A stretch of DNA of 25,062 nucleotides from a virus. The notes below the pieces were generated by a model. That model worked only from the letters and a program-made list of their open reading frames with translations, was not told the origin of the DNA and ran no database searches. Location of the stretch: IMG/VR virus record IMGVR_UViG_3300050821_009262, positions 1 to 25,062 of that record. One strand, given 5' to 3'. The position numbers and the translations under genes are program-made. Each line of letters opens with the position of its first letter. The first letter of the stretch is position 1. Shown piece after piece: positions 6,034 to 20,166 of this stretch.

Positions 6034-9000
6034 TTATTGGTTCAGGCCCAACGCATGCCCCAGATCCATGAGTGGCTTCTCCGGGTGCCGGGGCGCCCCT
6101 TCCCACGGGTGCTTGCTTTCGATCTTTCGCTCGCGCGCGATCGCCTGATTAGCCTTGTCGTAATCGGTGCCGTAGAAGACGCGGCCGACCGGAATGTCGG
6201 AGGGGACGATCGGCTGGCCTTGGCCCACGGTGCTGAAGACCTTGGCGGCGTTCTCGATCGTGCGCACCTGACCGCCGAAGTATTCCTTCATGATGTAGGC
6301 GATGTCCTCGGGGTAGAAGTCGAGGTAACCCGAATGCGTGCGGTTACCGCCGCTGACATTGTTGAGGAACTTCGCGATATCCTTCCACGCCGACGGCGTC
6401 CATTTGAAGCCGGACTCGGCGTTCGGTCCTTTCTGCATATCGGTCGTCGTGTGGATATGGCCGCCGGTCCACGATTTGTTGAGGCCGATATCCATGAGCG
6501 GCTTGATCTGCTCCGGCGCGATGTCGCGCCAGGCGACGCCAGTTTCGCCGATCGGCGAAATAGCTGAGATCAACGATTTTATCGCCTGGGCCGCATAGGT
6601 GGCGGCCTTCTCGGTTCCGAAGATCATGCCCGCCGCGGCGTAGCCGAGCGTGAGCGGAAAAGCATAATTGAAGGGGAACGGAAACTGGATCGGTTGCGGA
6701 CGGCCTTTCTCGTCCGACAGGCCGATGAAGAGAGCGAGCTGCTTCGTCTTCGTCCACTCCGGCAACTTATCGAAGAACGCGATTTTGTCTTTGTCCTGGC
6801 CGCCGAACGCATAGTTCCAGGCGGCTGCACCGAACCCCATCGCCATCGTATAGAAGAAGACCTTGCGCATGATACGCGATCGGCTTTGCGCTGCGCCCAT
6901 CCGGTAGCCGGTCTGGGTGGCGACGTTCTGGAACGGCTCCCACAGGGCCAAGTAATTCGACAAAACGCCGCGCAGGTTATAATCGACGGTCGCCTCACGG
7001 GCGGTCATGCTTGCCTGCTGGATCGACTTGCCGGCTTGGCGCGCTTGGACAAAGGCAGAAAGGCGCGTCGAATTGTCGATGATGCTGGTCCACATATCGA
7101 CGGTTTCGCTGATCGCGCGGGCGAGTTCGCGGGGATCGTATTCGCTACGGCCGATCGATGCTGCCTTCTTGCGCAGCCGGTCGAGCATCTGATCGTATTC
7201 GCGCATCGAGAACATCGACATTGCGCCGCCGCCCTCTTTCATCTGCTTCCAGTAGTCACCGAGCGGTCCGCCGTCGCGGCCGTGCTCAACATTCCAGATC
7301 GCGCGCGTCGCGTTGCCGATGAAGGGGAAGGCATCGGTCATGTACTGTAGCGCGCTGAAATTGCCGTGCTCCTTCTGCTCGTAGGCGTTGAGCAGCCCCT
7401 CGACGAAATAGCGCGCCGCGTGCCGGGCCATGAATTCCGGGTTATAGTGGGTGAGCAGGCTCTTCCATTTGCCGAGAATGTGGTTGGCGATCTGGATGAT
7501 GGCGTTGGTTTTCGGCGACCACATCTTGACCGCGCGCGCCAGGCGTAGATCGTCGAACACTACGTACTGGTCCCGGCCGCGCACCTTCATGTGCACGGCG
7601 TTCTCCCGGCGCTGGTCGTAGCTATCGTCCGTCCATTTCACGAGGCCGGTGGAGCGGTCGATCATCCGCTTCGGGCGGCCGCGGTCGATGGTGATGCCCA
7701 GTTCCTTGCGCACCTCGGCGCCGGCGGCATTGAGCATGCGGGCGAGGCCATGGAGGGCGAGGTTCTTCTCGGCCCGGTCGATGGTGCGGAGCGCCTGATC
7801 GACGAGCGCCACGACGGGGTTGTCGGCCTTGCTGCGGCGGCCTAGCGCGCGCTGGGTCTCCGGCCCCTTGATATCGCCGCCATAGCCTTTCGGCCGTTGC
7901 TCGGCGAATTGCGGGGCGTTGGTGGGGTCTTCCCAGCCGCGCAGGGGCACATAGTTCGGGCTCGAACGCCACCACTCGGAGATGGTCTCCTGGCTCTCGA
8001 GGCCGCCGCGGATCATCTCGCTGCTGATGAAGCGCCGGATCTCGCCGACGCGCTGCGCGAGCTCGCGGAAGGCGTCCCCCTTCGGACCATGTTCGAGATC
8101 GAATGCGATCCGTCTGGCGTCGTTGGTCGACATGCCCGAGGCGCCGACGACGTCGTGGTCGGACACAGCCCGGTAGAAATCGCTGCCCGGCTGGTGCAGC
8201 CGGCCGACATTGTCGTTCCGCTCCGGCGCGTGCTTGGCGTAGACGTAATCACCCGCCTCCTGCGAGCCGATATGGCCGATGCGCATCGTGTCGGCGAGCG
8301 GCCGGAAATACTCCGTCATGAAGGTCTGCATGCGGCTCGCGCGCTTGCCGGGGAACAACCGCTTAAGCTGGTAGAATTGCTGGTCGTCGGGCAGCGGCGA
8401 TTCGCGATCCCTGGCGACCCAGTCGTTCGAGCGCGCCTCGACGGCATTCTGCATGCGCTCGACGCGCGCGTTCCAATCCTGGAAGTGCTCCTTGGTCCAG
8501 AGCATGCCTTCGGAGCCGATCAGGTCGGCGATCTTGCGGCGGATGCTCCAGGAGGCCGGGTGCAGCGGGTCGTCGAAGGCCGGGCGCGCCATGGCCGCCT
8601 GCGGGCCTTCCTCCGCGTGCTCGATGCGTGCCGCGACCTCGGTGCGCGCCTGCTCCGCGCGGATCTGGTCGGCCATCCGCGAGGGGGCGCCCTCGGCCTT
8701 GCGGCTCGGCCGGGCGGCGAGATCGCCGGCGGCGGCTTGCTCGAAGACGTCGTGGTAGCTGTTGAAGCCAAGGCCGCGCAGGTAATTGGCGATCTGCTGG
8801 AAGAGACGCCGCAACCGCTCGAATAGCGCCCGGATGCCGATGTGCAGGCCAGCGCCATAGCCGCCGCCCTCGCGGTCTTTCATGAAGGCGGTAAACGCCT
8901 CGGCGCGGATCTCGTAATCCGCCATCTTATCGACCAGCTTGCGGACCTGCGCGTCGGTGGCGCTGGGCGCTTCCTGCTTCATGCTGGCGATCGCCATCTC

Positions 9001-12000
9001 GCGAAGGCGCGGCTCTTGCGCCTTGAGAAGACGCATCTCGGCGTCGGTGACGAAATGGTCTTCGATGGCGTGCCAGGACTCGTGATAGGCGGCGTCAAGC
9101 GGATTGATCGAAGGGTGATTGAGCGCGAGCCGGATGATGTCGTGCATCGGCAGGTACGCGCCGCCGACCTCTTCCTTGCGCGCGTGTCCCCAGCCGATCG
9201 GCTTCATCGCGTAGCGGCCGCGGATGTCGACGGCGACCTGCCTGCCGGTGAGGTGCTGCACTATGGCGGTCAGGCGCCGCGCAAGGTCCTCGCGCAGCGG
9301 CGCCGCCTTCGGCGTCAAGGCGGCGGCGAGCGCCGGCCGCGCCATCGGGGCAAGAAGGTCGCCCTCGGGTTCGGCCTCTTGCGGCTCCGCAGCGCCGCCG
9401 CGGCGCCCTTCGGCCTCTTTCGTCCGGCGGTCCAGCTCGGCGACGATGGCGGCAAGGCGCTCGCGCATCGTCTTGAGCTCGCCGGCGAGCGGAAAGCCTT
9501 CGCCACGCTGCGCCTTCAGGCTCGGCAGCGTCCGCTTCGCCTCGTCGATCCGCTGCTGCATCCACGCGCCGGTCGAGCGCGCGTTGCCCATGATATCTTC
9601 GCTCAGTTTTTCGAGCGCGGCCTGGATACGGTTTGGACTGATTGAACGCTCGGTTCGGCCGCTGATAGCGGCGAGCGTACGACCACCCTTGGTAACGGCG
9701 AGCACGATATCGGCGAAGCTCGTGCTCTCGCCCTGCACAGTAGCGCTTACGTCCGTATCGAACATGCGCCCCAGCGGGACCACCTTGGTCTCGTTGTTTT
9801 TTACGCTGTCGAGCGCGGGCTTCACCTTCTCGGCGATGGCCTTGCCGGCACTCCAGCGGCGCCGGAAAGTCTCTCCGCCCATCGTCATCTCAAATGGCAC
9901 GCGGGTGTCGCCGAAGGCGTTGCGGATGGCCTCCTCGATCGCGGTCTTGTTGGTCAGCGCCGCGCCCTCGATGTTGACGGTGTAGGGCGCGTTCTCGTCG
10001 CCGCCCTTTTGCGTGGCAATCGCGTCTGCCGCTGCTTTCTCCGCACTGAAGTCATCAAAGTGCTTTTTGCCCTCGATAGTGATGGAGCGCGAGCGGACAG
10101 CGTCGAGCAAGGGGTCAACGAGCTCGGAGCGCACCTCGGCGGCGTTGAGCTTTTCCTCTTCGATCTTTGCCGGATAATCCCTGATCGCCCGCTCGGCGCT
10201 GGTGATTGCGTCCTCGATGCCGAACATCTTGCGCCGGTAGGCGCGCTCCTGCATCTCGATCTTCTCGATCTCGCCGCCGAGCTTGACGCGCTCGAGGAGG
10301 AGCGGGTCGCCAGAGGCAAGCGCGGCGATCTCGGCCATGCTCACCGAGTCGTCGTCCTCGAATTCCATATTGAAGGCACCGTTATACTTGCGGATGCCGT
10401 TGACCATCTTGAGCTTCTGGGAATTGAGGTCCCACATCTTCGCGTCGACCGTGCGCTCGGTCGCATAGGCGAGGATTTCCAAGGCGAACTTGTCGCCGTA
10501 TTTCTCAAGGAGCCGGTTGCCCTGGCGGATGCCGCGGCCTTCGCGCTGCTCGATGTCCGACGGCTTCCAGGTCACATCGCCGTGGTGCAGCCCGACGATG
10601 CGCTCCTGCACGTTAGTGCCGGCACCCATGCGCGCGGTCGAACCGATGAGCACACGGATTAGGCCGTCGTTGACGGCGTCGAATATCGCTTTCTTCTCGG
10701 CGTCGCTGCTGGCCTCCTGGATGAACCGGACTTCGTCTGCCGGGATGCCGCGCGCGATCAGGTTTTTTTTCAGTTGGTCGTAGGCGTTCCACCCGCCCTT
10801 CTGCGCTTGGCGCAGTTCCTCCATTTCGGCAGGGTGGTACTTTTCGAGGTGATCGGTGATCTCGCGGTAGGTGGCTTCGTCTCCGGCCGTGAGTGCCGCA
10901 TCGCGCTTGGCGACCAGGCCGTCGTATTCCTTCAGGATGCGGTCGTCGCCCTTGGACTTGGGCACACTGCGATCGAGGAAGACGAGCTGCGTTCCCTTGT
11001 CCTTGCCCCACGCCTTATGCAGGCGCGCGACGTTGTCGGCGATGACGTCGACCTTGCCACCCTTCTCGTTGCCCGGATAGACGGTATGGGTATTGATCGC
11101 CCGCACATCGAGCGAGAGCTTGCGCGCCTTGTCCATGAGGCGCAGTCGGGTCGCGTTGCGCTCATCCGGGTCTTTGATGTTGGGAAGATCGTTGAACGCC
11201 GCGACGATCTCCTCGAGCATCGTCTGCTGCGCGCGCGTCGGCTTGACAATGATCTCCTGGCGGCCGCCGCCCTTGACCTCCGGCACCGGGAACCGCGCGC
11301 CGCCGTTATCTTCTGCGTACCAACGGTTGATGTCGTCCTGCGAAACGGCGTCCGTGAAGGAGTAATAGAGCTCCATCAGCGCGCGCATGTTCGACCAGGA
11401 CCGGCCGAGCCGCGTGACTTCCTTGAGGCCTCCGGCTTCGGTCGGTTCCCATTTCGGCTCCGCCGAGACCGACTGCGCGCGCCAGGCGTCGAAATGCTCA
11501 AGCCCGAGATCGTGCAGATCCCGCGCCGCGAGATAGCGCATCATCGTGTACATCTCGACGGCGCTATTCGAGATCGGCGTTCCGGTCATGAAGGTGACGG
11601 TGCCGGTCGGGCTTTCCCGCAGCACGCGCACCTTGTTGTAGAGATCGAACGCCTTGCGCGAGCCATGCTTGTCGCCCATTCCCCGGACGCCCTGCAGGCG
11701 CGAGGAATAGAAGAGGTTCTTGAACTCGTGGGCCTCGTCGACGGTGAGATCGTCCACACCCATCTGCTCGAACGTCAGCATGTTGTCGCGGTTCTTCGAC
11801 CGCAGCGAATCCATGCGGGTTTCGATGGTGGTGACCAGCCTTTCAGCCTCCTTGACCGTGAAAGGCTTGCGGCCGCCGCCGATGCCAGATGCCTCGGCCT
11901 CTTCCTGGGCCTCTCTCACGGCGTCTTGCGCGACGCGCAGTTCCTCATCGAGGAAGCGCAGCTCGGTGTCGGGCGAGATGCCGATAAAACCGAACGACGA

Positions 12001-15000
12001 GTGCGGAACGATAACGAGGTCCCAGTCGCCGGTCGCGATCTTGGCAAACAGGCGCCGGCGGTTCTGCTTATCGAATTGGTTCTTGCCGGCCGCGAGCACC
12101 TTGGCGCCGGGATAGAGCCGATAGGTGTCGGCCGCCCACTGATCGACGAGATGGTTAGGGACCGTGACCATGGGCTTGCGCGAAAGGCCCATGCGGCGGC
12201 GCTCCATCGCGCGCGCGATCGCCGTGAAGGTCTTGCCCGCCCCGACGACGTGGTCGAGCAGCATGAAGCGCTCGTAGATGCCGCGCCAGATCGCGTTCTT
12301 CTGGTGCCGGCGCATCTTGATGACTTCATCCGGCACCTTGCCGGGAAGCGTCAGATGCGAGCCGTCATGCTGCCGCGTGACGCGGGTGTTGAACTTGTCG
12401 TTATAGATATCGACAAGTTGATTGCGCCGGTCCGTATCGGCAAACACCCAATCAGCGAAATCGTTCTGTATCTCCTTCGCCTTTATCACCACGAGTGCCG
12501 AGGCTTCCTTGTCCTCGTAGCGGTTTTTCTTGGCGTCCTCGCGGATGACTTTCGGGATACGGGAATTGAGCATGCCGCGCAGGATGGCGTCGGCCGGCAT
12601 GTCGTCCGTGCCCCACTGGGCCTGCTTGTCCTGCCCGTAATCCCCGACCAGGAGGTTGAAGCTGTTCGTCGCCTTCGAGTAATTGACGCGGCCCTTGGCG
12701 CCGAGAAGATGCTCGGCGTAATCCTCGTAGATCTTCGGCGGTATCCAGTTGGCCCCCGGCAGCGCGGTGACCTGCTCGGCGGTCCACCTTTCCGGCTGGA
12801 CGGCTTCCAGCTCGGTGATGTTCTTTTCGAGACCGGCAGTGATGGCAGCGGCGAGCTTTCGCCTTACCTGGCCTGACAGGTAGTCGTTGCGCGGTTCCCA
12901 CTCGTTCGTCTCGGGATTGAAAAAGGCGAGTGGCTTGTCGCCCTCGCCGAGCTTCGCCGCGGCTTCTTCCTCGGAGACGCCAAGAAGAGTGGCGACACGC
13001 GGCAGGTCGATCTTGCCTCTCTCGGAGAGTGAGATTGAGAGAGCGTCGGCCGGGCTCTTCGCCGAGGTGGGTGCCTCGTATTTCGGGATGACCCGCCGTG
13101 AAAGAATGGCCGCCGGCGTCGCTGTCGCCGCGCGCGGCTTGTCCCCGGTGCGCGCTGCCTTGGCCGGCGTGATCGGCGGCCGGTATCCGCTTTCGAGTGC
13201 CGCCAGCAGCGCGCCGTCCGGCATCTCATTGACGAGCGCGGCATTGCGGGGTTCGTTGAGCAGCCCGTTCTTGCCGGTATAGCTCTTGTAGGCGGTCGCA
13301 AGGAGACGCCGGTTTGCCTCCATGCGCTTTGCGTCGGCGTCCTCGGTCTCGAGCACGATTTGCTTTTTCGTCAGGTCTCTCAAGCGTGCGAGGTCTGAAA
13401 GGCGTTCGAACTTTGCCTGCCCAAGCCGCATGCCCGCCGGCACGTCATTGTTCGGAAAGTATTTGCGCTCGTAGACGTTCCGCTTGCCCTGCTTGAGCTT
13501 CTCGCCCTTCTCGTTGACCGCCGGTTCGAGCGTGTACCATTTGCCCTCGCGGTCCATGAGAAGCTGTCGCGACCACGGCGACTCGGGCGTGAGCGCGCGC
13601 CGTGTTGCCTCGAAACCGCCAGACGGCGTCTCCTTCTCGGCGATCTGGGTGAGCTGGCCCTTGTCGTCGAACTCGATGTGCCCGGTCTCATGCCCGGCGA
13701 GTGCGATCTTGAGCGCGTCCGACATGGATTTGTGGCGCTCGATCGACGCTTTGGCGATGTCGGGCGAGAGATTGATCGCGTCCTTCGGTAGCGTGCCGAT
13801 GGCCTTGTCAAGCAACGCGCCGAGATCTGCGTTCTTGTCGAGCGTGACATTGACGCCTTTGCCCTCTTCGCCGGCCCGCTGCATCGTCCCGGAGCGTTCG
13901 AGACGCCCCATGACCATCTTCGGATTGCTGGCGAAGTAGGAGTTGACGCTCATCGGTTCGCCGCCGAGAGGGTCTTTCACCTCGTCGGTGTCGATCCACG
14001 GCGCCATCCGCAGGAGCGTTTCCCTCGCGGCTTGGCGCGCCTCGTCTGCCGCTTTGCCCTTCCCGGGCTGCCGCATGTCGGCGATCAGGTTCTCGATGGC
14101 CTTCTCATCTTCCGCGGTCCGGCGCCGCATGAAGACGATGTCCGTCACCACCTCGGTGCGCGCGTTCTCTTTGAAGGCGGTATCGGGAAGGCGGATGGCG
14201 CCGAGCAGGTCCGCCTTTACCGCCATCTTCTCGCGCGCGCTACTATCGCGCGCATCAAGGAGGTATCGCGAGACGACTGCGGCATGCAGGCCGCCCGGCT
14301 GCAGCGCGTCGAGCGCCGCCAGGAAGAACTGATTGTGGATCGAAAGACCGGCGAGCGCCGGCTTGTATTGGAAGCGAAGCGACTCCGAGCCGAACGGCGG
14401 ATTGCCGATCGAGAGCACGAATTCGCCGTCGGGCATTGGCACGCGCTGGAAGCCCGAATGCAGGACAGTCTCCTGCGGATATAACAATTTTGCGATGCGC
14501 GCCGTCAGACTGTCGAACTCGACGCCGATAAACTTGGTATGCGCGGCGAGATGATCCGGCACCAGACCGAGGAAATTGCCCGGCCCCATCGAGGACTCGA
14601 GCGTAAGACCACCCTTGAAGCCCAGGTGCTCGACCGCCTTCCACATGGCGTCGATAACCGGCTTCGACGTGTAATGCGCATTGAGCGTGGTGCGGCGCGC
14701 CGCGCGCAGCTCGTCCTTGGTCAGAAGGCTCTCGAGATTGTTGCCGCGCTCGGCCCAGTCCGGCTTGAATTCGTCGGTCTGCGGCGAGCGGAAGGCATTG
14801 GCGAGACCGCCCCAGCCGACATAACGCGCGAGGATGCGCTGCTCGTCCGGCGTTGCCCGGCGCTCGTCGCGCTCGATGTTCTTGAGCGCCGCGATCGCCG
14901 TGAGGTTGTCGTTGAATTTTTGGGTTTCGCCGCCTTTGCCGAGACCGAGATCTTCCCTGATCCGGAAGTTCTGCTCGGGGACGTTCGGCTCTATCCGACT

Positions 15001-18000
15001 TGCACTGGCGGGGCCTTCAGATAGTCCTGATCCATCTGGTGCAGCTCGGCCCTCTGCTCCTCGTCGAGCCCGTCCACTTCGGGCGGCAGCAGCACGTAGT
15101 CCTTCAGCGCCTTTTCTCTCGCCTCGTGCTCCTGGTACCCGTTCGCCTTGAGGTGATCGATTTCCCTTTGCGCCAGGTTCGCCGCGCCCTCGAGATCCTC
15201 GTTCAGCGTTCCGTTCGCCTGCGCCTCCCGATACTTCTGCGGGAGCCACTTCTGCCAGTGGTCGTTCGCCAGCGCTTTGAGTTCCTGCACGCTCATCGGG
15301 TGCCTCTTCCTTAAATTTATCACCCGGGCGCTCGCCGGCAAGGTCTTCGCGGGTGATTTTCCCGGCTTTGACCTCTTCGATGAATTTCTGCACGTAGGGC
15401 TGGACGCCTTCCAGCATCTCGCGGGACCAGCCATAGGCGTCCTTGAGCTCGCCAATCATCCGGTCCATCAGCTCGTAGATGTCGTCAAGGAAGGCCGAGA
15501 AGCGGCTGGCCGCCTTGATGAAATGCGGCTTTGCCTGCTGATAGGTCTCCGGGTCGAAGGCCGGCCCGGCGCCGACGGTCTTGCCGCCGCCGAAGAGCTT
15601 GGTGAGGGCCTGCATCGCCTCTTCGGCCGAGCCGCCCAGGTTCTCCGCGGCGCTCTTGGCGACCTTCCTCGCGGTGCGGCGGCGCGGTGATTCGGTGGCC
15701 TTGGCGGTCTCTTCGGCGGATTGCTCGGCGGCGTCCTCGCTCGCGATTGCCGCGGCGCGATCGTCCTCGCGCGGTCCGAATGCCTTGTCGAGCGATTGCT
15801 TGAACCGGCGCTGGAATTCCTCGTCTACAGGAAGCTCAGTTGCAGAGGGGGGGGGAGCCCCGGTCGGGGCTGTCGTCCACTCTTCGCGTTGTGCTTCAAG
15901 CTGCTTCGAGGCGGCCTCGGGTAGCCATTCGGTCGACTTCTCCTCCTGGATCACGCGCGCTCGCGCTTCGCGCTTCATCGCAGTCACGGCTTCCGGATCG
16001 AAGAAGCTCTCTAGCTCGGACGCGGTGTCCTGGAAAGCGCGAGCCGCCTCCTGGATGTCACGCGTGAGTTGTTTGATGTATTTCTCGGGCGGCGTACGGC
16101 CCGGCGGTTTCGTTTTTCCGGACTTAATTTCGGCCCGCAATCTGCCGGCGCGACGCATGACGGCTTGGTCGTTGACCATGCTGTTGATGGTCTCGTCGAG
16201 CATGCCCGCGACTTGCGATGCGTCGTAGCTCCCGTCCTCGTTCGCCTCGCCGAAGATCGGGCCACGCTGCTCTTCGTAGGCCGCCAGCTTCTTCTCGTTC
16301 GGCGCTGGGAATGTATCGTTGAAATCCCACGGGCCTTTGTCGGTGAGCTTCACCGTCATCGGCTCGCCGGTATCGGCGGCTTCTATCTCGCCTTCGCGTT
16401 TTACTTTCGGTGTTTCCGGCGCGCGCGCCTGTTCGACGAGGTCGGTTTGCTTGTGCTCGTCGCCGAACAGCCCTTCGTCGGCCGGCTTCTGATTGACCTT
16501 CGGCTTTAGGCGCTCGTCGGCTCGTCGCTGGGCGAGTTCGGCGTCGGAGATGCGTTCTGCGCCAGGGAGGACGTGCTGTTGGCCGGCTGCGGTGCGCTCG
16601 GTGCTGGGTTGTCGTTCGCGCTCGGCTGAGGGCTGCTCTCCTCCGGCAGCGGTCCCGCGTTCCGCGCTTCCGCTGCGTTCGCCAGCTTGAGACCGAGCCT
16701 CGCCGCCTTCTGATATTGCGGGCGCCTCGCCGGCACTCTTCTCGCCAGCTTGCGGAAGCTGTGCGCCGCCGCCATGAGCCGTTTCGTTCTTGGTCTCACT
16801 GACTGCCTCTTGTCGTTCGGTGGCCGCTTCCGATTCTTCAGCCTCGAACACGACCGCGTCATGCTCTGCCTTGAGGAATGCAGCGTCAATAGCATCGATC
16901 GGTTCGTGGCCGTGGTCGATCATCCGGCCGATGGCATCGTTCCAGATCTCGTCGGGAACCTCGTCGCGGCCGATTTTCGCCTGCTTGAGCGCTTTCTTCA
17001 GCTTCTTCTCGTGCTCGGCGACGAGTTTTGCCCGTTCTTCGTTCGCCTCGGTGACGGTGCGCCCGTGGCGCGCGGCTTCCTCGGCGCGGTGCGATTTGAA
17101 TGTGGTGACGGTGCCTTCCTGCCCCGATTCGCGGCGTTTTTTGGCCGCCGCCCGATACTCTTCGGCGTTCTCGACCATGCCCGCGAAGGGCGCGCCGCCG
17201 GTTACACGGGGGGCATTTTCGGCATGTTCACGTTGAGCGGCGTTGCCGGCTTCCACGGCGTTGCCTTGGCCAGATTGCTCGGCTGCAGCTTCGGCAGCGC
17301 GCTCCCCGCCGGCGGGCTCGCGAACGGGATGCTCTCCTGCTTCGCCACCGGCGGCTTCGCCGTTGTCATGCTCGGCACCTTCGGTGCCTTCAGTTTTGGG
17401 GCCTTCGGCGGCTTCGCCAGCCCGCTGGTGAGGTTCTTGTGGGCGAGCCGCGCCGCCGCCACGAAGCTGTTCGCCCGCTGGCGCGGCAGTCTCCCCACGA
17501 GCTGCGGCGCTTGATGCCGCAGGAGGTACGACGAGTGCAGGTGCTCCTGCGGGTTCCAATAGAGCGTGGATTTCTTCACCGTACTGCTCCTTGACCTGCT
17601 CCGGCGTCATTAGGCCGTCCTCGACGGCGGCGCGCACGACGGCGAGTTGGAAGGCGTCGGCTGGCGGCAGGCCCTCGTTGGCGTGGATCTCGGCGGCGCG
17701 CGCGATATCGACCGGTCGCACCTGGTGCGGATCGACGCCCACCTCCTTGAGCGCGGCTTCGACGGCGGCGTGGTCACGGGGTGACGTCTCCGGCCCGCTT
17801 GAAACGACAGAACCCCCCTGGGCGGCAGAGGGGTTTTGTCGTTCCTCCGGGGTAAGATCGGCCTCCCGGGCACCCGTCTTAGGGTTGTTCGCCCCCTCTT
17901 CGGCCGGCTTTACATCCGGCTTTACACTATACATGGCATCGGAGAGCGGCTGGCTCAGGTCGCCCTTGGCCCAGTCCTTGAACTCCGGAACCGACATCGC

Positions 18001-20166
18001 GCGCATGCCGCCGACACCGGTTTCTTCCTTCCCCTGCGCGCCGGTGTAGGCCTTGAGCGCTTCCATCGGGCTCTGGAACCCGATGAACGCCTTGTGCTGG
18101 CGGAATGCTCCGGTCTTCGGATCGCGCTCGTCGATGACGTAGACCGTCGGCGCGCCGGGATTGGCGCCGAAGAAGGCGTCGAGGTGATCGCCATCGGCCC
18201 CTTTTGTTCCCTTGATGTACCCGTACGCAGCGCTGAAGCGTTGCTCCCAGGGCATACCCTCGGCAGAAACGCCGCGCCTGATGCCGCCGGCCGGCGCTTC
18301 GAAGGTGACGCCGAGACCCTGCCACGTCGCATGGCCGCGCTCGGCATTGTTCGCTTCGCCCTGCGCGTGCGTGTGGTCCTGGCTCGCCTGCCGGGATGCG
18401 CGCTCGACGTCGGCGCCGGTTTTGATGTCGATCGGCGCGCCGCGGCTTCCCGGCGCCGGCGGCTCTTCGGTCGATGGCGTGCCGTTGCGCAGCGCCTCGT
18501 CGACGTTTGCCGCCTTCTCCTCTGGCGACATTCCCTTGATGTCTTCGTCGGTGTGGCCCTGGCGGCGCAGGATCTCGTCGTCGTCGGCGCGGTGCGAGCC
18601 ATACCCGAACTTACGGTTGACGTAATCTTTCAGCTCGTCGTCGGACCAAGACCGGATGGTGTCGCGGTCGTGCTCCTTGTAATAGGCGGCGGCGTCCTCG
18701 AGCTGCAGACGCACGCTCGGCTTGAGCTTCGTCTCGAACGGCTGCGGCTTTTCCTTCGGCGCGCTCTGTTGCGCTCCCGCACCTCCAGCGCCGGCGCTCG
18801 CGTTCGGGCCTGTGCTTTGCCACGGGTTGGGATCGTCCTTGCGATCGTAACCGGGATTGTCTTGCTGGTATTTGCCGTAGTCGAAGGAGCCGTTCTCCTG
18901 CCAGTATTTTGGATTATTGGCGTCGGTGAACCCTTGCTGGGCGCCGGCGCTTCCCGGCGGTAGACCTGGCTGCGGCTCTGGTTCGGCGTCGCCCCTGTTA
19001 CGGAGATCGTCCTCCGTATCGATTTTCAGTTCTGGTTTTGCCGCCTGGTGCTTTTCGAGCGCGGCGTGCAACGTGCCCAACGCGCCGCCGGCGAGCAGTT
19101 CCGAGATCAGGCGCTCCGTATTGAACGAATAGCCCGCTTTCGGGTCGTACATCTTGGCGATTTGCTGGCCGATATATTCCTGCGCCTCGCCGACGCTCGC
19201 GAAGACGACGCCGTTCTGCGCCGCCTCCGAAAGGATGCGCATGCCGAGGCCGGCGCCTTCGGGCAGGAGCTTCTTGAAGGGCGCAAGTACGCTCGCGATT
19301 GGCAGCGTGCCGAGCGCAGCATTCGCTGCACCGGACAGCATCGCGGCTTCGCGCGCGGTATCCTCGCTCGCGCCCTTCTCGATCGCCGCGTCGTACGTGT
19401 CGCCGGCGCTCGAAAAGCCGAACATGGCGGCGCCGCCGGCGATGCCGGCTGCCGGATCGACCATGCCGAGCGCGAGCGGCGCGGCGACGCCACCGAGGAT
19501 CTGTCCGGTCTTGCTGTAAATCGGATGCGCGGCGCGCTCGGCCTCGCTAACCGGGATATTCTCCTCGGCCCATTTCTCGGTCGCCTGCCCGGCCCGGTAG
19601 AGCGAGCTTTCCTTGGCTGAGGGCTGCTTGCCGACGGGCACATTCTCGGGGACGTTGATATCGGCTTCGCCGGGCGGGCTCGGCTGCGCCTGTGCGGTTG
19701 CGGCGACGCCGAGGCCTTTGAGCGTGCTGCCGACGCCTTTGACCGCGGACTGCGCCGCCTCGCGTGCGGCAACGCTGGGGCCGCTGCCAATGTCGTTGAC
19801 AGGCACCTCGCCCGCGGCGACCGCTTCATTTTCCGGCGTGCCGAATTGCGAGAAGTCCGGCGATTGCACCTTGTCTTTGGTGGTGCCGAACGCGCTGAAA
19901 TCCGGCTGGCCTTCGGGCGTTTTCGCCGCGCGCTCCGCCATTTTGTCTTGCTGCCGACGGATCAGCCGGTTGAGCACCGCCTGCGGATCGACGTTGCCGT
20001 TGTCGGCAAGGTCCGGCGCGCGCTGCCGGATGAGATCATTGAGCACGCCCTGCGGCTCGATCGGTCCCGTTGAGAGACCGAGTGTGGTGCCGCCGGTGTT
20101 GCCAGCACTATTTGTCTCCGCGTCGTCCGGAGGCGACGCGGGGAGATCAGGCCAATTTGCTGGCAT
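6034..20166 (-). CDS. Giant polyvalent protein, 4710 aa (InPase-like, N6-methyltransferase, SF2 helicase, HExxH zincin, LPD38-like)
   Basis: One uninterrupted frame. The order of parts is as follows. N-terminal short repeats (PDFSAFG and PDFSQFG near residues 90-110). Hydrophobic Gly/Ala-rich segments (about 220-340). An InPase-like domain (about 612-745). Helical linkers. A region preceding the methyltransferase with helices ending near residue 1600. A DarB-like N6-adenine methyltransferase (YVGWGG at 1782, NPPF at 1922-1925). An SF2/SNF2-like helicase (about 2600-3230). Coiled coils. A zincin (HESWH 3695-3699). A long LPD38-like C-terminus (about 3870-4700). Such proteins are known as polyvalent proteins of phages and conjugative elements, delivered with the DNA to defeat host defences. 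It lies between virion and lysis genes, which supports packaging in the virion. Three stretches (about residues 863-988, 1122-1220, 1623-1725) have poor GC3 and Ala/Gly/Glu/Arg composition; each hosts a nested gene in the +1 frame. Confidence 0.9.
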   Translation of the reverse strand: MPANWPDLPASPPDDAETNSAGNTGGTTLGLSTGPIEPQGVLNDLIRQRAPDLADNGNVDPQAVLNRLIRRQQDKMAERAAKTPEGQPDFSAFGTTKDKVQSPDFSQFGTPENEAVAAGEVPVNDIGSGPSVAAREAAQSAVKGVGSTLKGLGVAATAQAQPSPPGEADINVPENVPVGKQPSAKESSLYRAGQATEKWAEENIPVSEAERAAHPIYSKTGQILGGVAAPLALGMVDPAAGIAGGAAMFGFSSAGDTYDAAIEKGASEDTAREAAMLSGAANAALGTLPIASVLAPFKKLLPEGAGLGMRILSEAAQNGVVFASVGEAQEYIGQQIAKMYDPKAGYSFNTERLISELLAGGALGTLHAALEKHQAAKPELKIDTEDDLRNRGDAEPEPQPGLPPGSAGAQQGFTDANNPKYWQENGSFDYGKYQQDNPGYDRKDDPNPWQSTGPNASAGAGGAGAQQSAPKEKPQPFETKLKPSVRLQLEDAAAYYKEHDRDTIRSWSDDELKDYVNRKFGYGSHRADDDEILRRQGHTDEDIKGMSPEEKAANVDEALRNGTPSTEEPPAPGSRGAPIDIKTGADVERASRQASQDHTHAQGEANNAERGHATWQGLGVTFEAPAGGIRRGVSAEGMPWEQRFSAAYGYIKGTKGADGDHLDAFFGANPGAPTVYVIDERDPKTGAFRQHKAFIGFQSPMEALKAYTGAQGKEETGVGGMRAMSVPEFKDWAKGDLSQPLSDAMYSVKPDVKPAEEGANNPKTGAREADLTPEERQNPSAAQGGSVVSSGPETSPRDHAAVEAALKEVGVDPHQVRPVDIARAAEIHANEGLPPADAFQLAVVRAAVEDGLMTPEQVKEQYGEEIHALLEPAGAPALVVPPAASSAAARGETAAPAGEQLRGGGAARPQEPHQRAGEAAEGPKTEGTEGAEHDNGEAAGGEAGEHPVREPAGGERAAEAAAEQSGQGNAVEAGNAAQREHAENAPRVTGGAPFAGMVENAEEYRAAAKKRRESGQEGTVTTFKSHRAEEAARHGRTVTEANEERAKLVAEHEKKLKKALKQAKIGRDEVPDEIWNDAIGRMIDHGHEPIDAIDAAFLKAEHDAVVFEAEESEAATERQEAVSETKNETAHGGGAQLPQAGEKSAGEAPAISEGGEARSQAGERSGSAERGTAAGGEQPSAERERQPSTERTAAGQQHVLPGAERISDAELAQRRADERLKPKVNQKPADEGLFGDEHKQTDLVEQARAPETPKVKREGEIEAADTGEPMTVKLTDKGPWDFNDTFPAPNEKKLAAYEEQRGPIFGEANEDGSYDASQVAGMLDETINSMVNDQAVMRRAGRLRAEIKSGKTKPPGRTPPEKYIKQLTRDIQEAARAFQDTASELESFFDPEAVTAMKREARARVIQEEKSTEWLPEAASKQLEAQREEWTTAPTGAPPPSATELPVDEEFQRRFKQSLDKAFGPREDDRAAAIASEDAAEQSAEETAKATESPRRRTARKVAKSAAENLGGSAEEAMQALTKLFGGGKTVGAGPAFDPETYQQAKPHFIKAASRFSAFLDDIYELMDRMIGELKDAYGWSREMLEGVQPYVQKFIEEVKAGKITREDLAGERPGDKFKEEAPDERAGTQSAGERPLAEVAPAEVSGGAGERNAERGSRGRGEPGAKGNRSPQGERVPGARGERKGAEGLRAAAARSGRARRGAEGRAAPDGSGLSEGPASASRIEPNVPEQNFRIREDLGLGKGGETQKFNDNLTAIAALKNIERDERRATPDEQRILARYVGWGGLANAFRSPQTDEFKPDWAERGNNLESLLTKDELRAARRTTLNAHYTSKPVIDAMWKAVEHLGFKGGLTLESSMGPGNFLGLVPDHLAAHTKFIGVEFDSLTARIAKLLYPQETVLHSGFQRVPMPDGEFVLSIGNPPFGSESLRFQYKPALAGLSIHNQFFLAALDALQPGGLHAAVVSRYLLDARDSSAREKMAVKADLLGAIRLPDTAFKENARTEVVTDIVFMRRRTAEDEKAIENLIADMRQPGKGKAADEARQAARETLLRMAPWIDTDEVKDPLGGEPMSVNSYFASNPKMVMGRLERSGTMQRAGEEGKGVNVTLDKNADLGALLDKAIGTLPKDAINLSPDIAKASIERHKSMSDALKIALAGHETGHIEFDDKGQLTQIAEKETPSGGFEATRRALTPESPWSRQLLMDREGKWYTLEPAVNEKGEKLKQGKRNVYERKYFPNNDVPAGMRLGQAKFERLSDLARLRDLTKKQIVLETEDADAKRMEANRRLLATAYKSYTGKNGLLNEPRNAALVNEMPDGALLAALESGYRPPITPAKAARTGDKPRAATATPAAILSRRVIPKYEAPTSAKSPADALSISLSERGKIDLPRVATLLGVSEEEAAAKLGEGDKPLAFFNPETNEWEPRNDYLSGQVRRKLAAAITAGLEKNITELEAVQPERWTAEQVTALPGANWIPPKIYEDYAEHLLGAKGRVNYSKATNSFNLLVGDYGQDKQAQWGTDDMPADAILRGMLNSRIPKVIREDAKKNRYEDKEASALVVIKAKEIQNDFADWVFADTDRRNQLVDIYNDKFNTRVTRQHDGSHLTLPGKVPDEVIKMRRHQKNAIWRGIYERFMLLDHVVGAGKTFTAIARAMERRRMGLSRKPMVTVPNHLVDQWAADTYRLYPGAKVLAAGKNQFDKQNRRRLFAKIATGDWDLVIVPHSSFGFIGISPDTELRFLDEELRVAQDAVREAQEEAEASGIGGGRKPFTVKEAERLVTTIETRMDSLRSKNRDNMLTFEQMGVDDLTVDEAHEFKNLFYSSRLQGVRGMGDKHGSRKAFDLYNKVRVLRESPTGTVTFMTGTPISNSAVEMYTMMRYLAARDLHDLGLEHFDAWRAQSVSAEPKWEPTEAGGLKEVTRLGRSWSNMRALMELYYSFTDAVSQDDINRWYAEDNGGARFPVPEVKGGGRQEIIVKPTRAQQTMLEEIVAAFNDLPNIKDPDERNATRLRLMDKARKLSLDVRAINTHTVYPGNEKGGKVDVIADNVARLHKAWGKDKGTQLVFLDRSVPKSKGDDRILKEYDGLVAKRDAALTAGDEATYREITDHLEKYHPAEMEELRQAQKGGWNAYDQLKKNLIARGIPADEVRFIQEASSDAEKKAIFDAVNDGLIRVLIGSTARMGAGTNVQERIVGLHHGDVTWKPSDIEQREGRGIRQGNRLLEKYGDKFALEILAYATERTVDAKMWDLNSQKLKMVNGIRKYNGAFNMEFEDDDSVSMAEIAALASGDPLLLERVKLGGEIEKIEMQERAYRRKMFGIEDAITSAERAIRDYPAKIEEEKLNAAEVRSELVDPLLDAVRSRSITIEGKKHFDDFSAEKAAADAIATQKGGDENAPYTVNIEGAALTNKTAIEEAIRNAFGDTRVPFEMTMGGETFRRRWSAGKAIAEKVKPALDSVKNNETKVVPLGRMFDTDVSATVQGESTSFADIVLAVTKGGRTLAAISGRTERSISPNRIQAALEKLSEDIMGNARSTGAWMQQRIDEAKRTLPSLKAQRGEGFPLAGELKTMRERLAAIVAELDRRTKEAEGRRGGAAEPQEAEPEGDLLAPMARPALAAALTPKAAPLREDLARRLTAIVQHLTGRQVAVDIRGRYAMKPIGWGHARKEEVGGAYLPMHDIIRLALNHPSINPLDAAYHESWHAIEDHFVTDAEMRLLKAQEPRLREMAIASMKQEAPSATDAQVRKLVDKMADYEIRAEAFTAFMKDREGGGYGAGLHIGIRALFERLRRLFQQIANYLRGLGFNSYHDVFEQAAAGDLAARPSRKAEGAPSRMADQIRAEQARTEVAARIEHAEEGPQAAMARPAFDDPLHPASWSIRRKIADLIGSEGMLWTKEHFQDWNARVERMQNAVEARSNDWVARDRESPLPDDQQFYQLKRLFPGKRASRMQTFMTEYFRPLADTMRIGHIGSQEAGDYVYAKHAPERNDNVGRLHQPGSDFYRAVSDHDVVGASGMSTNDARRIAFDLEHGPKGDAFRELAQRVGEIRRFISSEMIRGGLESQETISEWWRSSPNYVPLRGWEDPTNAPQFAEQRPKGYGGDIKGPETQRALGRRSKADNPVVALVDQALRTIDRAEKNLALHGLARMLNAAGAEVRKELGITIDRGRPKRMIDRSTGLVKWTDDSYDQRRENAVHMKVRGRDQYVVFDDLRLARAVKMWSPKTNAIIQIANHILGKWKSLLTHYNPEFMARHAARYFVEGLLNAYEQKEHGNFSALQYMTDAFPFIGNATRAIWNVEHGRDGGPLGDYWKQMKEGGGAMSMFSMREYDQMLDRLRKKAASIGRSEYDPRELARAISETVDMWTSIIDNSTRLSAFVQARQAGKSIQQASMTAREATVDYNLRGVLSNYLALWEPFQNVATQTGYRMGAAQSRSRIMRKVFFYTMAMGFGAAAWNYAFGGQDKDKIAFFDKLPEWTKTKQLALFIGLSDEKGRPQPIQFPFPFNYAFPLTLGYAAAGMIFGTEKAATYAAQAIKSLISAISPIGETGVAWRDIAPEQIKPLMDIGLNKSWTGGHIHTTTDMQKGPNAESGFKWTPSAWKDIAKFLNNVSGGNRTHSGYLDFYPEDIAYIMKEYFGGQVRTIENAAKVFSTVGQGQPIVPSDIPVGRVFYGTDYDKANQAIARERKIESKHPWEGAPRHPEKPLMDLGHALGLNQ
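8750..9270 (-). other. Zincin metallopeptidase domain (HExxH) of the giant protein
   Basis: About residues 3630-3805. The HESWH at 3695-3699 (in DAAYHESWHAIED) is an HExxH zinc-binding motif with Glu3696 as the general base. A downstream glutamate in EIRAEAFTAF could be the third ligand. The preceding segment (HDIIRLALNHPSINPLD) resembles domains that precede such zincins in other polyvalent proteins. Possible roles are self-processing of the giant chain or cleavage of a host target; the sequence does not decide. Confidence 0.65.
10480..12360 (-). other. SF2/SNF2-like helicase domain of the giant protein
   Basis: About residues 2603-3229. All the main ATPase motifs are present: Walker A VGAGKT (G2642-T2646), motif Ia (VTVPNHLVDQW), Walker B DEAH (2810-2813), motif III (TFMTGTPISNS), motif V (GSTARMGAGTN) and motif VI (QREGRGIRQGN, from 3207). 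An RHQKNAIWR Q-like motif precedes Walker A. With the methyltransferase upstream this matches the methylase-helicase pairing of DarB-type antirestriction proteins. It appears catalytically intact. Confidence 0.85.
13980..14990 (-). other. N6-adenine DNA methyltransferase domain (DarB-like) of the giant protein
   Basis: About residues 1725-2062. It begins with the conserved lead-in (ARYVGWGG at about 1780) typical of polyvalent DarB-like proteins. It then has a SAM-binding loop (LESSMGPGNFLG near 1856), an acidic strand end (GVEFD) and the catalytic IGNPPFG (NPPF 1922-1925), which places the target adenine. It probably methylates incoming phage DNA to protect it from restriction. No start codon with a ribosome site lies just upstream, so this part must be translated as a continuation of the giant frame. 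Confidence 0.8.
14991..15296 (-). CDS. Nested out-of-frame gene 3 inside the giant ORF: 101-aa soluble protein
   Basis: An ATG at 15296 lies 6 nt after AAGAGG (complement of 15308-15303), and TAG closes the frame at 14991. It is in the +1 frame relative to the giant ORF. The product looks like a genuine helical protein: MSVQELKALANDHWQKWL, then NLAQREIDHL, then DYVLLPPEVDGL and an acidic end. By hand count over 15181-15240, 16 of 19 codons of this frame end in G or C, against 8 of 20 for the giant frame. The giant frame here gives only Arg/Gly/Ala/Glu-rich sequence. No family is named with certainty, though the LLPPE ending resembles small conserved proteins of alphaproteobacterial elements. 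It is better supported as coding than the overlapping giant segment. Confidence 0.75.
   Translation of the reverse strand: MSVQELKALANDHWQKWLPQKYREAQANGTLNEDLEGAANLAQREIDHLKANGYQEHEAREKALKDYVLLPPEVDGLDEEQRAELHQMDQDYLKAPPVQVG
16506..16799 (-). CDS. Nested out-of-frame gene 2 inside the giant ORF: 97-aa Pro/Asn-rich protein
   Basis: A GTG at 16799 lies exactly 6 nt after AAGAGG (complement of 16811-16806); an alternative ATG is at 16775. TAA ends it at 16506. It uses the same +1 frame as the other two nested genes. The N-terminal half is basic and helical (HSFRKLARRVPARRPQYQ, then LGLKLANAAEARN). The C-terminal half is Ser/Pro/Asn-rich and probably disordered. GC-ending codons clearly dominate in this frame from about the ATG onward, while the giant frame shows the same Ala/Gly/Glu/Arg linker as at the other sites. 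Function unknown. It is less certain than genes 1 and 3 because the tail is of low complexity. Confidence 0.6.
   Translation of the reverse strand: MRPRTKRLMAAAHSFRKLARRVPARRPQYQKAARLGLKLANAAEARNAGPLPEESSPQPSANDNPAPSAPQPANSTSSLAQNASPTPNSPSDEPTSA
17202..17579 (-). CDS. Nested out-of-frame gene 1 inside the giant ORF: 125-aa Pro/Lys-rich protein
   Basis: A GTG at 17579 lies 7 nt after AAGGAG (complement of 17592-17587), and TAA is at 17202. It is in the +1 frame relative to the giant ORF. The N-terminal 50 residues look globular (KKSTLYWNPQEHLHSSYLL, then ANSFVAAARLAHKNL). The rest is a Pro/Lys/Ala-rich tail with PKAPKLKAPKVP-type repeats ending Met-Pro-Pro-Val. By hand count over 17521-17580, 17 of 19 codons end in G/C here against 6 of 20 in the giant frame; over 17281-17340 the figures are about 20 of 20 against 12 of 20. 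The giant frame has about 90% GC3 just upstream (17641-17700) and recovers right after the nested stop. The function is not recognised. Confidence 0.72.
   Translation of the reverse strand: MKKSTLYWNPQEHLHSSYLLRHQAPQLVGRLPRQRANSFVAAARLAHKNLTSGLAKPPKAPKLKAPKVPSMTTAKPPVAKQESIPFASPPAGSALPKLQPSNLAKATPWKPATPLNVNMPKMPPV
17940..18333 (-). other. InPase-like domain of the giant protein
   Basis: About residues 612-745 of the giant protein. The segment reads ERGHATWQGL, then YGYIKGTKGADGDHLDAFFG (DGDH at 658-661), then VYVIDERDPKTG and later MSVPEFKDW. This succession is the hallmark of the inorganic-pyrophosphatase-like domain found in polyvalent proteins of mobile elements. The Asp and His residues of GADGDHLD are the likely metal ligands. 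Whether it hydrolyses pyrophosphate or acts on modified nucleotides is unknown. Confidence 0.7.

Follow-up and report, generated by a model that had tools for sequence, protein, structure and literature searches.

The giant gene and its nested frames

The window, by which we mean the whole stretch of DNA analysed, is a 25,062-base viral fragment. Its largest gene and the three ORFs nested in it, which we call n1, n2 and n3, all lie on the minus strand (Table 1). The 4710-aa product of the host gene matches the DarB-like antirestriction family phrog_10089 (E=0), and an InPase domain (PF18823), a helicase region and LPD38 (PF18857) were detected in it. Genes adjoining the giant gene match DNA-ejection and virion structural families. 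A homologue of the giant protein, JC1 gp69, is virion-associated, with 51 unique peptides in JC1 virions (PMC9144972). Antisense to the giant gene, a 700-aa ORF occupies positions 10774-12876 of the plus strand and is probably a by-product of codon bias.

Table 1. Positions of the giant gene, its domains and the nested ORFs in the window
Feature	Position	Strand	Basis
Host gene, 4710-aa DarB-like large polyvalent protein	6034..20166	-	Profile matches
InPase domain, giant aa 601-734	17965..18366	-	Domain match
Giant-frame module aa 800-872, directly upstream of n1	17551..17769	-	Only in n1-carrying phages
Conserved giant segment aa 1742-2017, after n3, into methylase/helicase part	14116..14943	-	
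n1, nested gene in giant +1 frame, 125 aa, GTG start, stop included	17202..17579	-	Codon score, conserved start and frame, substitution pattern
n1 Shine-Dalgarno sequence AAGGAG, 7 nt spacing	17587..17592	-	
n1 conserved head, residues 2-33, YWNP..HL...Y.LRHQAPQLVGRLPR	17481..17576	-	Identity to L001
n1 Pro/Lys-rich tail, predicted disordered	17205..17426	-	
n2, second nested +1 gene, 97 aa, likely GTG start at 16799	16506..16799	-	Codon score; L001/L002 profile match
n3, third nested +1 gene, 101 aa, ATG at 15296, Shine-Dalgarno sequence AAGGAAGAGG	14991..15296	-	Codon score; same nesting in 68/73 loci

The 125-aa ORF described in the earlier note is present as n1. It begins with GTG, ends with TAA and is complete within the longer same-strand gene, in a different (+1) frame. 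AAGGAG precedes the GTG by 7 nt, as had been described (GCAGGTCAAGGAGCAGTACGGTG). Because n1 lies in the +1 frame, its third codon position falls on the first codon position of the giant frame. The GC content of n1 at codon positions 1/2/3 is 0.62/0.51/0.90. A sharp switch in GC3 had been claimed for this block; the values for the nested frame (0.90) and for the giant frame just before it (0.88) agree with this claim, whereas the range of about 30-60% given for the giant frame inside the block was slightly too wide (0.48-0.60).

The predicted product of n1 has a mass of 13.6 kDa and a pI of 11.3. Its Pro/Lys tail is real (21 P and 14 K among 125 residues), but the suggested likeness of this tail to linkers of phage structural or toxin-associated proteins was not borne out by a match to any structural or toxin family. 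Nor did a globular head emerge from modelling: the AF2 model, built from only 2 sequences, was of low confidence (pLDDT 61), with helices at residues 10-23 and 38-51 and an unstructured tail. A fold search with this model was dropped because the model was too poor. We found no known family, PDB entry or phage record matching n1. The two sister ORFs n2 and n3, which lie near n1 in the same frame, had not been part of the earlier finding.

Codon use and substitution pattern of n1

The +1 frame at n1 is open for 134 codons from stop to stop. In synonymous shuffles of the giant gene the mean was 160 codons, and an equally long open +1 frame occurred in 77% of them (P=0.77), so that we rejected ORF length as coding evidence. 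The giant linker, rich in A, E, G and Q, rarely has T at its second codon position, and this composition by itself keeps the +1 frame free of stops; the high GC3 of n1 is likewise due in part to the high GC1 of the linker. Length and GC3 are thus what a chance open frame would have, a frame that is free of stops and high in GC3 because the linker is rich in Ala, Glu and Gly, and that is not translated. We consider this explanation unlikely, since the codon score, the conserved start with its Shine-Dalgarno sequence, the identity of the nested proteins and the inverted position-specific divergence described below all speak against it.

A codon-usage score was compared with 500 synonymous resamplings across 14.1 kb, for which the whole-gene null maxima were 3.9 (95%) and 4.1 (99%). 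Exactly three stretches of the +1 frame were picked by this score, namely n1 (z 4.3), n2 (z about 4 at ~16600-16700) and n3 (z up to 5.4 at ~15050-15200), and zero stretches of the +2 frame passed the scan over the same 14.1 kb. The giant-frame score collapsed at n1 (z -5.7) and at n3 (z -8.8). With untrimmed training, that is, without excluded zones, n1, n2 and n3 peaked again (z 4.9, 3.8 and 5.6), which indicates that the codon result is independent of the choice of training set. A +1 peak at L011:9168-9336 (z 6.0) scored low in absolute terms, coincided with no protein-like ORF and was not counted as a gene; nor was a +2 peak in L070.

n1 recurs in two contigs, L001 and L002, where it occupies the corresponding place in the giant ORF, again in +1 and behind a Shine-Dalgarno sequence of its own. 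They differ at 3 of 10,096 bases (near-identical contigs, seen also as L011/L012) and therefore provide only one independent comparison for n1. The start in L001 is an ATG one codon from the GTG of the window, with GAGG about 7-8 nt before it. The n1 head is 72% identical to that of L001, a distantly related phage. The tails are only loosely alike (47% identity over the full alignment), and position counts over the whole gene were uninformative.

We held both giant proteins fixed and resampled their synonymous codons. The identity of the nested heads was 23/33 in the best-matching 33-codon segment, compared with a mean of 10.1 and a maximum of 21 in 20,000 resamplings (P<5e-5). In the reverse test, with the nested proteins fixed, the identity of the giant proteins was 13/34, as expected (P=0.40). 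Divergence at giant codon positions 1/2/3 was 0.50/0.25/0.12 over the n1 head and 0.33/0.25/0.48 in a downstream DarB control, so that the silent sites of the giant frame are the frozen ones over the head (Fisher 6e-5). We conclude that, in this one independent comparison, the nested frame of n1 is under selection.

The earlier note had named the absence of the frame in close relatives that keep the surrounding giant domains as the observation that would speak against n1. The giant-frame module at aa 800-872 was found only in the window phage and in L001 and L002, each of which also has n1. Where only more distant giant domains are retained (InPase, 41 loci), n1 is absent; it is therefore lineage-specific. 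No credible n1 relatives beyond these contigs were obtained by tblastn against phages and plasmids or by profile and pattern scans of viral and genome contigs, GTDB and about 795 bacterial genomes. A single match in G271 was rejected, as it is interrupted by a stop and falls mainly in the Pro/Lys tail.

The GTG start of n2 and its Shine-Dalgarno sequence are common to the window and L011, with the GTGs aligned. Its conservation was weak in synonymous resampling (core P=0.019, N-terminus P=0.51), and taken individually n2 is a weak case.

n3 and its family

Among the nested genes of the window, n3 is the strongest case. Single-sequence scans for n3 and InPase had found nothing before the alignment-based search, in which an alignment of eight relatives yielded 55 viral loci; the later set comprised 73. 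In 68 of these 73 loci, which are related and thus do not count as independent events, the longest ORF contains n3 in its +1 frame. The loci include phages of Agrobacterium, Klebsiella, Erwinia, Pseudomonas, Vibrio and Microcystis, and n3 is likewise present in Ochrobactrum phage POI1126 and Erwinia PEp14. A Shine-Dalgarno sequence precedes 70 of the 73 n3 starts, compared with 7% of other out-of-frame ATGs. In the pair L004/L087, divergence at giant silent sites was 4/90 within n3 versus 271/593 downstream. n3 was modelled with confidence as a helical bundle (pLDDT about 94 over residues 1-70); a fold search matched only Q8W6J4, presumably the PBC5 protein, and nothing in the PDB.

Free-standing n3 genes, without a giant gene, occur in L091 and L095. 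A third is probably that of L029, which is overlapped by a 241-aa ORF. The copy in Corticibacter populi (L091:8001-8300) is situated near a Mob_Pre relaxase and an integrase, and these neighbours suggest that n3 is found in mobile elements outside phages. The neighbours of free-standing n3 (relaxase, integrase, primase) did not point to a function.

Among the GenBank records examined, those that place the giant gene on the right strand have no same-strand CDS at the nested n3 position. In Itty13 (L008, Pseudomonas phage, MW460249) the GenBank features are on the strand opposite the giant ORF, which is itself unannotated. As the nested genes are missing from the annotations inspected, this conserved small protein is absent from the protein collections on which phage proteomics, defence screens and PHROG-type families draw, and PHROG even folds n3 into an 'endolysin' family (PHROG 938), where it forms a C-terminus.

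The n3 loci also bear on the question of whether only the small genes are real, the giant 'gene' being a row of separate genes that an open frame links by accident. At n1 the giant frame shows no conservation beyond that expected in the reverse test above, and giant codon use collapses, both of which would fit this explanation. However, the giant frame is open through n3 in 68 loci, where the probability that it is open by chance, given the n3 protein, averages 0.034; this argues that both frames are kept. Moreover, the Burkholderia pair BcepIL02 and JC1 has a nested gene at the linker corresponding to that of n3 (its similarity to the n3 profile is no more than marginal), and here both frames are conserved beyond expectation, the giant frame beyond what the nested frame demands (P<5e-5). 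Peptides of the giant protein were also present in JC1 virions (PMC9144972). An accidental joining of genes is therefore very improbable.

Programmed +1 frameshifting would make n1 an alternative C-terminal end of the upstream giant part rather than an independently initiated product. In Sinorhizobium phage PBC5 (L006, AF448724; 752-7309) n3 is the in-frame continuation of the upstream orf33, and the methylase part starts with the ORF that follows. A frameshift at this site, natural or from sequencing, is possible, and the C-terminal position of n3 in PHROG 938 agrees with such an arrangement. Against this, stops in the nested frame lie 9 codons before the GTG of n1, 3 codons before the ATG of L001 and 2 codons upstream of the ATG in several n3 loci, leaving almost no room for a slip site. 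In addition, the Shine-Dalgarno sequences and start codons are conserved, and free-standing n3 genes exist. Internal initiation fits the nested genes better than frameshifting, which we regard as the least probable of these three alternatives and reject as the source of the nesting. Assembly error is rejected as well, because the same arrangement recurs across dozens of records, cultured phages included.

Origin of the nesting and comparison with known systems

Our results make it very probable that n1 is a real overlapping gene, initiated internally in the +1 frame of the giant gene, and that the giant gene holds at least three such genes, all in linkers. The giant mRNA would most likely be translated twice at n1. 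Ribosomes coming from the upstream ATG would read this stretch as part of the giant protein, presumably a virion component, in which it forms a disordered Ala/Glu/Gly linker; others would initiate within the gene, at the GTG that follows AAGGAG, and produce a strongly basic protein whose short helical head is followed by a Pro/Lys tail.

Judging from sequence features, the nested frame is probably older than the giant frame: its codon usage is ordinary, n3 has a confident fold, the giant linkers are of low complexity, much as if a small gene had been translated out of frame, and n3 occurs alone elsewhere. The small genes would have existed first, and the giant frame would have been laid over them when neighbouring parts fused. 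Such overprinting may be one specific way in which giant virion proteins acquire linkers. A similar route has been proposed for embedded spanins (PMC6139136).

As to function, we tentatively suggest that n1 could encode an accessory protein, or a partner, that is produced alongside the giant, presumably ejected protein and perhaps acts on it, although we find this more doubtful than not. A broader proposal, which we hold to be plausible but somewhat short of probable, is that giant polyvalent genes are read twice by design: they would have grown by fusion across small genes, whose sequence now also codes for the disordered linkers of the giant protein, and the small proteins (n1, n2, n3 and other, lineage-specific ones) would still be made from internal starts. 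If so, the gene of each giant virion protein would carry accessory proteins of its own.

Embedded +1 genes are already known, Rz1 in Rz being one example. In the two-component spanins of lambda and others, Rz1 is, like n1, a complete same-strand gene inside another in the +1 frame; such genes are usually missed by gene callers, and disordered residues are expected in one of the overlapping frames (PMC6139136). The Rz host gene is small, however, and both products belong to one lysis complex, whereas the host gene described here, which presumably encodes a virion protein, is 14 kb long and has three or more nested genes in its linkers. The analysis revealed no lysis signature. We rejected n1 as an o-spanin Rz1, since it has no cysteine and hence no lipobox and is located in a presumed virion-protein gene instead of a lysis cassette. 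Another comparable case is gene E of phiX174, initiated internally in the +1 frame of the morphogenesis gene D. Unlike the window phage, phiX174 is a single-stranded DNA phage under size pressure, and E is a lysis protein.

The host gene of the window belongs to the DarB-like large polyvalent proteins (P1 DarB, Bcep22 gp75, JC1 gp69). The known members differ in that the GenBank feature tables examined list no nested genes for them, and a term search of Iyer et al. 2017 (PMC5512222) found none either. Several nested genes in one giant virion-protein gene, one of them widely conserved and unannotated, appear to be undescribed in the openly searchable literature.

Weak matches to TnpV (PF14198) were obtained with 20 of 49 n3 members (E<=0.01, best E 3.5e-4), and none with the n3 of the window itself. 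TnpV proteins are similar to n3 in their small size. This likeness concerns n3 members only; n1 is unrelated.

The simple codon test used here also finds further nested cases. Besides BcepIL02 and JC1, which are Bcep22-like, +1 genes inside giant genes were found in Pseudomonas 8P and Pseudoalteromonas Y7. Other nested genes are lineage-specific; one of them, the +1 gene at L058:5523-5744, matches a known standalone small phage family, phrog_16759 (E 2.9e-19). In the Erwinia phages Pavtok and PEp14 (L005:4448-4759, L101:5569-5880), both frames of a nested +1 gene are conserved beyond expectation. Finally, the rhizobial phages L019-L041 and L004 have another conserved nested +1 gene about 6.6 kb downstream of n3, exemplified by L037:14475-14684 (MENQIQAVQGLIDPPTPFDTLQAWKDWAQSISKWPAHDPQRQVFLKQARQMIQEKS) and its relatives.
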